From Actinomycetota bacterium (lineage in GTDB: Bacteria; Actinomycetota; Thermoleophilia; Miltoncostaeales; Miltoncostaeaceae), in contig VGCE01000001.1 of the NCBI GenBank assembly GCA_016870155.1, positions 1-64,000 of the forward strand: 64,000 nt of DNA, given 5' to 3'. A program made the translations under genes and the position numbers. Below, piece by piece: positions 43,137 to 48,060 of the stretch (positions are counted from its first letter, which is position 1; the number at the start of each line of letters is the position of its first letter). The notes beneath the pieces were generated by a model. The model worked only from the letters and a program-made list of their open reading frames with translations. It was not told the DNA's origin and did not search any database.

Positions 43137-43160
43137 GCCCGTGGCGACCCGCGGCCGCGC

Positions 43161-43166
43161 TACCCT
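43161..43166 (+). promoter_or_regulatory. -10 element of a probable leaderless promoter for the HD hydrolase
   Basis: TACCCT ends 7 nt before ATG 43174. On the other strand TAGGGT (rc of 43162-43167) could serve the Ppx/GppA gene with a 25-nt leader. Confidence 0.5.
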
Positions 43167-43173
43167 AGACCCC

Positions 43174-43890
43174 ATGTCGACCGGCCCGCTCGATCCCCCG
43201 TCCGTTGGTGAGTCGGGCGAGGCGCTGGCACCCAGCGCCCCGCGCCATCTCGCATGGCCGCGGCACTTCGACACGGGCGACGACGTCGAGGATTCCTGGG
43301 TGAGGGCGCTCGCCGCGTTGCCCGCCGATGACCGCGCCATGCTGCTGCGCGCCGACGCGTTCGAGCGCGAGCGGCACGAGGGCCAGACCCGTCGTGGCAG
43401 CGACACGCCGTACTGGCTTCACCCTGTGCGCGTGGCCATGGGGCTCATGCAGTGGGGGGTCACCGATCGCGACGTGCTGGCTGCCGCGCTGCTGCACGAC
43501 GTGGTGGAGGACACCGTCACCACGCCCGAGGAGATCCGCAGCGCGTTCGGCGTGCGCACCGAGAATCTCGTGGTGTGGCTCACGGCACCCGACGCACGGG
43601 TTGCGGGGGATGCCGTGCGCGACTACTACCGTCGGCTTCTGGAGCAGGGGCCGCCTGATGCGCACCTCCTCAAGATCGCAGATCGTTCGGACAACCTGCG
43701 CAGCATCCAGGCGCTGGTCATGCGCACCGGCGACCGGCACCGTCGCTGGGCCGGCACCTACCTCACCCGCACCCAGTGGCAGGTGCTCCCGTTGGCCGCC
43801 GAGGCACCCTCTCCCGCGCGCGTGGCGCTGGTCACGGCGATGGCCGATCTGGCGCCCTTGGTGGAGCCCCTCGGCTTCACCGAGCCCTAA
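43174..43890 (+). CDS. RelA/SpoT-type HD hydrolase (MESH1-like small alarmone hydrolase)
   Basis: 238 residues. HD-hydrolase motifs in order: RHEGQTRRGSDTPYWLHPVRVA, AALLHDVVEDTVTTPEEI, FGVRTENLVVWLT and HLLKIADRSDNLRSI. No synthetase, TGS or ACT domain, so it is a stand-alone hydrolase of the small alarmone hydrolase/MESH1 type. It probably removes the 3' pyrophosphate of (p)ppGpp, though MESH1 also dephosphorylates NADPH. Confidence 0.85.
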   Translation: MSTGPLDPPSVGESGEALAPSAPRHLAWPRHFDTGDDVEDSWVRALAALPADDRAMLLRADAFERERHEGQTRRGSDTPYWLHPVRVAMGLMQWGVTDRDVLAAALLHDVVEDTVTTPEEIRSAFGVRTENLVVWLTAPDARVAGDAVRDYYRRLLEQGPPDAHLLKIADRSDNLRSIQALVMRTGDRHRRWAGTYLTRTQWQVLPLAAEAPSPARVALVTAMADLAPLVEPLGFTEP

Positions 43891-44240: not shown

Positions 44241-45428
44241 CTAGTGGCCGGGCAGCGGGATCTCGGCCAGGTAGGGAGGGCCGGGAAGCGGCGCGAGGCC
44301 CAGGCGGCCCGCCGCGAGGTCGATGAGGGCGTCGCCGGCCACCTCACGCCGCCAGCCGCGCCCCAGGGGGAGTTCCTCGACGGCACCCTGCATGAGCACA
44401 CCTGCGAGGAAGGCGTCGACGTCGTCGCGCGTGGCCACGAGGGTGGGCGCCAGGTCGACGTCCGCTGATCGCGCCGTGAGCAGGATCTGCGCCAGCGGCG
44501 TCAGCGTGTCGAGCCGCGCCTGCACCTTCGCGGGCAGGGGCGGGCCCAGCGCGATGGGCGGGTCGCCCGCGGCCTCGTCCATGGCGGCGATGAGCGACTC
44601 GGCCTCGCGCTCGCGCATGGCCGATGGCACGCCGCGCTCGTCCAGCAGCACCCCGGGGCCCTTGGGCCGGCGGCGGGCGATCTCGATCAGCGTGCGGTCG
44701 GGCAGCAGCCAGCCCACGGGGCGGTCGCGGCGCCGGGCCTCCATCTCGCGCCACGCCGCGGCCCGGCGCAGCACGGCGCGCTCGGCCGGCTGCAGGCGGC
44801 CCTGGCCCTTCACCCTGCGCCATGCCTCGTAGGGGTCGGGAGCCACCCGGGCCGTGGGGCCGTAGCGGCGCTCGTGCTCCTCGAGGACCCACTCGGTGCG
44901 GCCCAGGACAGCGGCCCGACGCATGAGCGTATCGACCATCGCGAACAGGTGCGCCACGTCGGTGGCCGCATATTCGAGTTGGGCCGTGCTGAGGGGGCGG
45001 CGCGACCAGTCGGAGTACCCCTCGGTCTTGGGCACGCGGATGTCCAGCACCCGCTGCAGGAGGGCCCCCAGGCTCTGGCCGGCGCCGAGCCCCACGAAAC
45101 CCCCGATCAGCTGCGAGTCGAGCAGGTTGGTGGGACGCACGTCGAACCCCAGCGCGAACAGCGTGAGGTCGGCGCTCGGCGCGTGCATCACCACCTCCAC
45201 CGCTGGATCGGCCAGCAGCGCCGCGATGTCGTCGAGCGCGCCGCCCTCGACGGGGTCGATGAGGGCGATCTCGTCGGGGGTGGCCACCTGTGCGAGGCAG
45301 GGGATGGGCGCGTACGTGCGCTCCCACAGGAACTCCACGTCGAGGGCCATGCGCCCGTGGGTCCTCACGCGTCCGGCGAGGTCGGCGACCTCCTCGGGCG
45401 TGACGATGATGCTCGTCCGCTCGCTCAC
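44241..45428 (-). CDS. rnd: Ribonuclease D-like 3'-5' exonuclease with HRDC domain
   Basis: 395 residues. DEDD exonuclease motifs: MALDVEFLWERTY (ExoI Asp and Glu), VMHAPSADL (ExoII Asp), LEYAATDVAHL (ExoIII Tyr and Asp). A HRDC-type helical region follows (QPAERAVLRRAAAWREMEARRRDRP). It trims tRNA or other structured RNA. GTG 45428 with TAATCT 8 nt upstream. Confidence 0.92.
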   Translation of the reverse strand: MSERTSIIVTPEEVADLAGRVRTHGRMALDVEFLWERTYAPIPCLAQVATPDEIALIDPVEGGALDDIAALLADPAVEVVMHAPSADLTLFALGFDVRPTNLLDSQLIGGFVGLGAGQSLGALLQRVLDIRVPKTEGYSDWSRRPLSTAQLEYAATDVAHLFAMVDTLMRRAAVLGRTEWVLEEHERRYGPTARVAPDPYEAWRRVKGQGRLQPAERAVLRRAAAWREMEARRRDRPVGWLLPDRTLIEIARRRPKGPGVLLDERGVPSAMREREAESLIAAMDEAAGDPPIALGPPLPAKVQARLDTLTPLAQILLTARSADVDLAPTLVATRDDVDAFLAGVLMQGAVEELPLGRGWRREVAGDALIDLAAGRLGLAPLPGPPYLAEIPLPGH

Positions 45429-45429
45429 G

Positions 45430-45447
45430 ACGCCTAAGATTAGGCGT
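45430..45447. promoter_or_regulatory. Palindromic divergent promoter of rnd and the ABC-F gene
   Basis: The 20-bp gap is filled by ACGCCTAA-GA-TTAGGCGT, 8-bp arms around 2 nt. Plus TAAGAT (45435-45440) ends 8 nt before GTG 45449; minus TAATCT (45442-45437) ends 8 nt before GTG 45428. The hexamers overlap by four base pairs. Confidence 0.65.
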
Positions 45448-45448
45448 A

Positions 45449-47406
<1,958 letters not shown>

Positions 47407-47410
<4 letters not shown>

Positions 47411-48060
47411 ACGAACCGGGCTTCACCGACGACATCTACGCGCGCCTCACCGGCATCTGCACCCCGGTGCAGGTGCTGTCGGGTGATGAGCTTCCCGCGG
47501 CAGCCCTGCATGGGCCGATCGGCTTCGTCTCGGCGGGCCGCCTCGCGGTGGTGGTGGATGCCGAGGCGGGACGCACCCGCACCATCGCGCTGCTGCAGGA
47601 GGGCGACGCCCTCGCGCTCACCGGCGGCGGGTGGCCGGGCGCTCCGGGCGCACGCGTGCGCGCCGCCACCGATGCTGAGCTGCTGGTGCTCACCGGGTCG
47701 CTCGATGATGTGCTGTGCAGCGACTCCGCGCTGGCCGCGTGGATCATCCGCGCGCTGGCCTTCGCCGTGGCCGATCGCGAGCTCTCGGCGGCCATCGCGC
47801 TGGAGCCCCGCCTCGAGCGGCGCCTCATCCTCAAGCTGCGCCAGTTGGCCCAGCGCTGGGGCAAGGTCACGCCCGACGGGGTGAGGCTCGACCTGAGGGT
47901 CACCCACCAGGAGCTGGGCGACATGATCGGCGCGGCCCGCGAGTCGATCACGGTGGCGCTCGGCCGCCTGCAGGAGCAGGATGAGATCACCGTGCGCCGG
48001 CGCACGGTGGTGCTGCGCCAGATGGATGATCAGCCCGGGGCGGCCACCGACAGCGCGTAG
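47407..48060 (+). CDS. Crp/Fnr-family transcriptional regulator
   Basis: 217 residues. An N-terminal cyclic-nucleotide-binding-like barrel (PIGFVSAGRLAVVVDAEAGRTRTIALLQEGDAL) leads into a C-terminal winged helix LRVTHQELGDMIGAARESITVALGRL. No Fnr-type Cys cluster, so oxygen sensing by Fe-S is unlikely; the effector is unknown. It is translationally coupled to the ABC-F gene and converges on egtD with a 31-bp overlap. Confidence 0.88.

Follow-up and report, generated by a model that had tools for sequence, protein, structure and literature searches.

In the window (the whole 64,000-nucleotide stretch of DNA that was analysed), 20 bp (45429–45448) separate the divergent genes rnd (GTG at 45428, minus strand) and ABC-F (GTG at 45449, plus strand). 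The original prediction was that two leaderless promoters are packed there into one inverted repeat. The gap reads CAC (45426–45428) G ACGCCTAA GA TTAGGCGT A GTG (45449–45451), and the features of the locus are as follows.

44241–45428, minus strand: rnd, ribonuclease D, 395 aa, GTG start; TIGR01388 at 269.8 bits, PF01612 and PF00570 (exonuclease and HRDC domains)
45449–47410, plus strand: ABC-F ATPase, 653 aa, GTG start; NF000355 at 389.2 bits (cut-off 380), ABC_tran (two stretches), ABC_tran_Xtn and ABC_tran_CTD
45429–45448, no strand: predicted bidirectional promoter, the entire 20-bp intergenic gap, from the sequence and the gap lengths of orthologues
45430–45447, no strand: perfect inverted repeat ACGCCTAA-GA-TTAGGCGT, 18 bp, with 8-bp arms and a 2-bp centre; symmetry of the flanks is lost in relatives
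45435–45440, plus strand: predicted ABC-F −10 hexamer TAAGAT, 8 nt to the GTG, from the sequence and a TANNNT on this side in all 34 orthologues
45437–45442, minus strand: predicted rnd −10 hexamer TAATCT, 8 nt to the GTG, from the sequence and a TANNNT on this side in all 34 orthologues
45435–45442, no strand: symmetrical core TAAGATTA, common to both predicted promoters; TAANNTTA in 17 orthologues and TANNNTA in 12

Domain and family matches uphold both predicted gene names, although the RNase D score of 269.8 bits is slightly below the NCBIfam cut-off of 298.95. Downstream, a gene for a Crp-family regulator (47407–48060) overlaps the stop codon of ABC-F (ATGA). The repeat that was said to fill nearly the whole gap is present and perfect, and its length is 18 bp, not 20 bp. 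The two hexamers have 4 bp in common and each lies 8 nt from its own GTG, exactly as claimed; they are on opposite strands and near-symmetrical, which is the arrangement that defines bidirectional promoters. By the 7-bp rule a 4-bp overlap gives a predicted spacing of about 17 bp between the transcription start sites (TSSs), and the start codons are 21 bp apart. A search for structured RNA gave no Rfam match at 45200–45700, and a consensus scan found neither a terminator nor a −35/−10 promoter.

Gene-level statistics were taken from one 455-kb contig of the genome of the window (71% GC, including a masked or withheld stretch of 5000 N), on which a simple codon-usage finder called 454 genes, and from a 400-kb sample of the relative G030. 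On the contig, TANNNT stands 6–9 nt before 70 of the 454 predicted starts (25 at 6 nt, 22 at 7, 15 at 8 and 8 at 9), with almost none at other spacings, and the signal is strongest at divergently oriented genes (38/118). No column upstream of these hexamers on the contig carries appreciable information, and hence there is no −35 consensus. Leaderless (TA-led) genes have been reported in Actinobacteria (PMC3160421), and promoter mapping at leaderless genes of M. tuberculosis gave TANNNT without a −35 element (PMC3898074). The peak at 6–9 nt, together with the absence of a −35 consensus, indicates that predicted leaderless promoters of the −10-only type are ordinary in this organism, and the hexamers at the rnd and ABC-F starts belong to this genome-wide peak near start codons. 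Within the 6–9 nt range seen in this genome their spacing of 8 nt is rather long, so the true TSS may sit 1–2 nt before the GTG. Of the 59 divergent pairs on the contig, ten show leaderless hexamers at both starts, and overlap of the two is confined to rnd/ABC-F. Elsewhere in the window, the called start of an HD-domain gene, 43141, probably lies upstream of the true one (region 43137–43174); TACCCT at 43161–43166, 7 nt before the ATG at 43174, suggests this ATG as the leaderless start of that gene.

We compared 34 orthologues in the family in which rnd adjoins ABC-F, drawn from several genera and including genomes of 2.4–3.6 Mb. On the ABC-F side TANNNT is found at 8 nt in all 34, except for 7 nt in G009 and G013, and on the rnd side it is found at 6–9 nt in all 34. 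In G013 the forward hexamer is shifted by one base (TACATT, 7 nt) and the reverse hexamer is unchanged. The hexamers overlap in 29 orthologues and are separated in five, and both promoter elements are kept in every one. The TAANNTTA geometry, with a 4-bp overlap, is shared by 17 orthologues (16 members of the genus and G028), and the TANNNTA geometry, with a 5-bp overlap, by 12, mostly of other genera. Despite this difference in geometry, 24 of the 29 orthologues with overlap have a gap of precisely 20 bp, and the other five have one of 19–21 bp. In the separated orthologues, with gaps of 30 bp (G030), 41 bp (G015), 75 bp (G022), 83 bp (G033) and 85 bp (G063), each hexamer is still 7–8 nt from its own predicted start codon, several rnd starts having been tried for G022, G033 and G063. 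A tree based on RNase D plus the initial portion of ABC-F needs three changes between overlap and separation, and five for all three geometries. Because just three changes between overlap and separation are needed, overlap is likely the ancestral state of the family, with long branches and forks of low support leaving the exact placements unsure. None of the class-level ABC-F relatives retrieved lies beside a detectable rnd, which limits the comparison to the family; a scan of named genome contigs gave distant ABC-F proteins only, the best at 48% in a Gaiellales MAG. The pair of divergent leaderless −10 elements with shared base pairs thus stands as predicted, to judge from the many such promoters in the genome and the hexamer pair in all 34 orthologues.

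With a TANNNT frequency of 0.00054 per base, chance would place one 6–9 nt before about 0.2% of starts, and before both starts of a pair with a probability of about 5e-6. The repeat alone is unremarkable, as the GC-rich window holds 8 perfect inverted repeats with 8-bp arms and a 2-bp spacer. The promoter pair, unlike the repeat by itself, is more than chance. The only TAANNTTA on the 455-kb contig is that of the rnd/ABC-F gap, and the pattern CAY-N6-TAANNTTA-N6-RTG has one match in each of 14 family genomes, always at this locus, with zero matches for the reversed control. TANNNTA with fixed 7/8 spacing showed no genome-wide enrichment over the reversed control, and most of its matches elsewhere than rnd/ABC-F are not between two coding-like frames.

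The gap is therefore read here, with high confidence from sequence comparison, as a compact and doubly leaderless bidirectional promoter. The housekeeping sigma factor would recognise the TANNNT −10 element, and, because the core TAAGATTA is symmetrical and offers one −10 element per strand, RNA polymerase could bind in two opposed orientations; a −35 element would not be required in this genome. Transcription would start at or within 1–2 nt of each GTG, and both mRNAs would thus be leaderless and without a Shine–Dalgarno region. Each promoter would have its upstream half within the first codons of the opposite gene. One polymerase at a time would occupy the site and, with low basal firing, the two genes would probably be expressed independently and at a low level, presumably without regulation of the promoter pair. 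We infer that the elements actually fire; their anatomy, the genome-wide leaderless signature, the conservation and the independent separations are direct observations.

The claim that rnd and ABC-F exclude each other has to be divided. Single binding and initiation events should be mutually exclusive because the −10 elements overlap, and this part stands. Mutually exclusive expression does not follow, because bidirectional promoters tested in E. coli fire too rarely at their basal level: the activity of five such promoters was too low for competition, and one direction was repressed only upon substantial activation of the other (PMC12825309). Since there is no −35 element and no sign of an activator, we consider near-independent low expression of the two genes more likely. 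It is conceivable, if unlikely, that throughout the family the common base pairs of the −10 elements are themselves selected because they tie the expression of RNase D to that of ABC-F at a constant low ratio; were this true, the change from a 5-bp to a 4-bp overlap with retention of the 20-bp gap would reflect such selection. A regulatory switch, in which competition of polymerases at the common core makes expression exclusive or reciprocal and is selected for that effect, appears quite improbable. Overlapping −10 elements cannot be occupied together, activation of a bidirectional promoter in E. coli does lead to repression of the divergent RNA (PMC12825309) and the overlap is kept in 29 of the 34 orthologues, but the five promoters tested in E. 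coli were too weak basally, the promoters were separated in three lineages with neither gene lost, and the promoters here are of the −10-only type, with no activator site visible.

The original prediction also allowed that a repressor could cover both promoters, and we compared the symmetry of the flanks in 18 rows. The two centre bases of the repeat vary freely among relatives; the base directly flanking the core is complementary in 18 of 18 rows, and further out the counts fall to 13, 10, 10, 9 and 6. No signal of compensatory change in the outer symmetry (ACGCC/GGCGT) was seen among these rows, and shuffling of the right flank gave 53.7 ± 3.1 matches where 57 were observed, with 0.19 of the shuffles as high, so there is no sign that the outer symmetry is maintained. 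Moreover, a second copy of GCCTAANNTTAGGC is absent from 20 genomes of the genus. Thus neither compensatory symmetry nor recurrence at other promoters, by which a repressor operator may be recognised, was found. In G015 the palindrome is lost and both promoter elements are kept. Alignment with the gaps of relatives, which was to show whether the symmetry is conserved, revealed some homologous gaps without the palindrome; this counts against the palindrome as a functional unit, and not against the promoters. The comparison therefore indicates that it is not the palindrome that selection keeps, but the two predicted −10 elements together with the distance from each to its start codon. An operator for a dimeric repressor acting on both promoters, for example the Crp-like protein, would account for the perfect 18-bp symmetry in the window and for a Crp-family gene that overlaps the end of ABC-F. 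With outer symmetry that decays fast and uncompensated with distance from the core and a motif with no other copy in the genus, it is very unlikely. The Crp-like gene is found downstream of ABC-F in part of the genus only; it was seen at this position neither in G008, a member of that genus, nor in the other genera with overlapping hexamers. It was rejected as the regulator because it is not beside ABC-F in other genera. Symmetry, even when perfect, does not by itself make the DNA between two divergent genes an operator.

The TTAGG on each strand might instead be Shine–Dalgarno-like, with the real promoters farther upstream within the opposite genes, and AGG does stand a few nucleotides before each GTG in the window; relatives with a TACCCTA core (G020, G025, G026, G031 and G035) have no AGG and yet keep TANNNT at 8 nt, and TANNNT has its spacing peak genome-wide, which makes this explanation hardly credible. 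The palindrome might also have arisen by chance in a compact genome and play no part as a promoter. This fits how common such repeats are in GC-rich DNA (the window has 8), but in view of the joint probability of both hexamers (about 5e-6) and their conservation across 34 species of several genera, genomes of 2.4–3.6 Mb among them, it can be dismissed with near certainty.

A bidirectional promoter with overlapping leaderless −10 elements is also predicted at a second site, between the divergent genes nfo (endonuclease IV-like; AP_endonuc_2) and gltX in the 400-kb sample of G030.

L220:1911–1927 (G030:C1, about 1,141,911–1,141,927): nfo/gltX site CAC-ATGGC-TATCCTA-CGGAC-GTG, 17-bp gap

Here TANNNT lies 6 nt before each start, with the core TATCCTA, and the overlap is visible too in G063, G064, G065 and G035. 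The overlapping leaderless elements are the same as at rnd/ABC-F, whereas the gap is 17 bp and the overlap is apparently kept in fewer relatives. With this second site, the architecture recurs, at about 1 in 55–60 divergent pairs per sample. A TACCCTA core is also present upstream of a conserved small protein of 71 aa in four members of the genus (L200, L204, L205 and L211 at 1501); the frame opposite is just 16 aa, and an antisense or short transcript is possible.

The locus illustrates the small size that a divergent regulatory region can reach: a single −10 core, which is symmetrical, together with two start codons. Its two overlap geometries and three independent separations form a natural series, in which one can ask whether sharing a −10 element matters for expression or is tolerated. 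Whereas knowledge of most bidirectional promoters comes from TSS mapping in a handful of model species, rnd/ABC-F can be traced through 34 species.

In their TANNNT about 7–12 bp before the start, their lack of a conserved −35 element and their ATG or GTG start codons, the two genes resemble the TA-led genes of actinobacteria and mycobacteria (PMC3160421, PMC3898074), and differ from other such genes in that two of these promoters have base pairs in common. A literature search of partial coverage found no doubly leaderless bidirectional promoter; the nearest published case found was the divergent leaderless pair prpD/Rv1129c of M. tuberculosis. Bidirectional promoters are known in E. coli, Salmonella and other prokaryotes from the work of Warman, Grainger and colleagues (PMC12825309, PMC10268837). 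The rnd/ABC-F site shares with them near-symmetrical −10 elements that overlap on opposite strands, predicted TSSs about 17–21 bp apart and a polymerase that would bind in two orientations. In their commonest geometry −7T and −11A are reciprocally paired and the TSSs are 18 bp apart (PMC10268837), and this is the TANNNTA of 12 relatives. The core in the window differs from this class by a one-base offset, with a 4-bp and not a 5-bp overlap and without the −7T/−11A pairing; classes with TSS spacings of 10 and 23 bp and small variations also exist, so 18 bp is not obligatory. Unlike those promoters, which came from TSS maps, the rnd/ABC-F site is read from sequence, both of its transcripts are predicted to be leaderless, it has no −35 element and it fills the whole intergenic region. 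It would thus be a compact case of the bidirectional promoters already described, and what appears to be new is that it is leaderless on both sides and built from −10 elements only.
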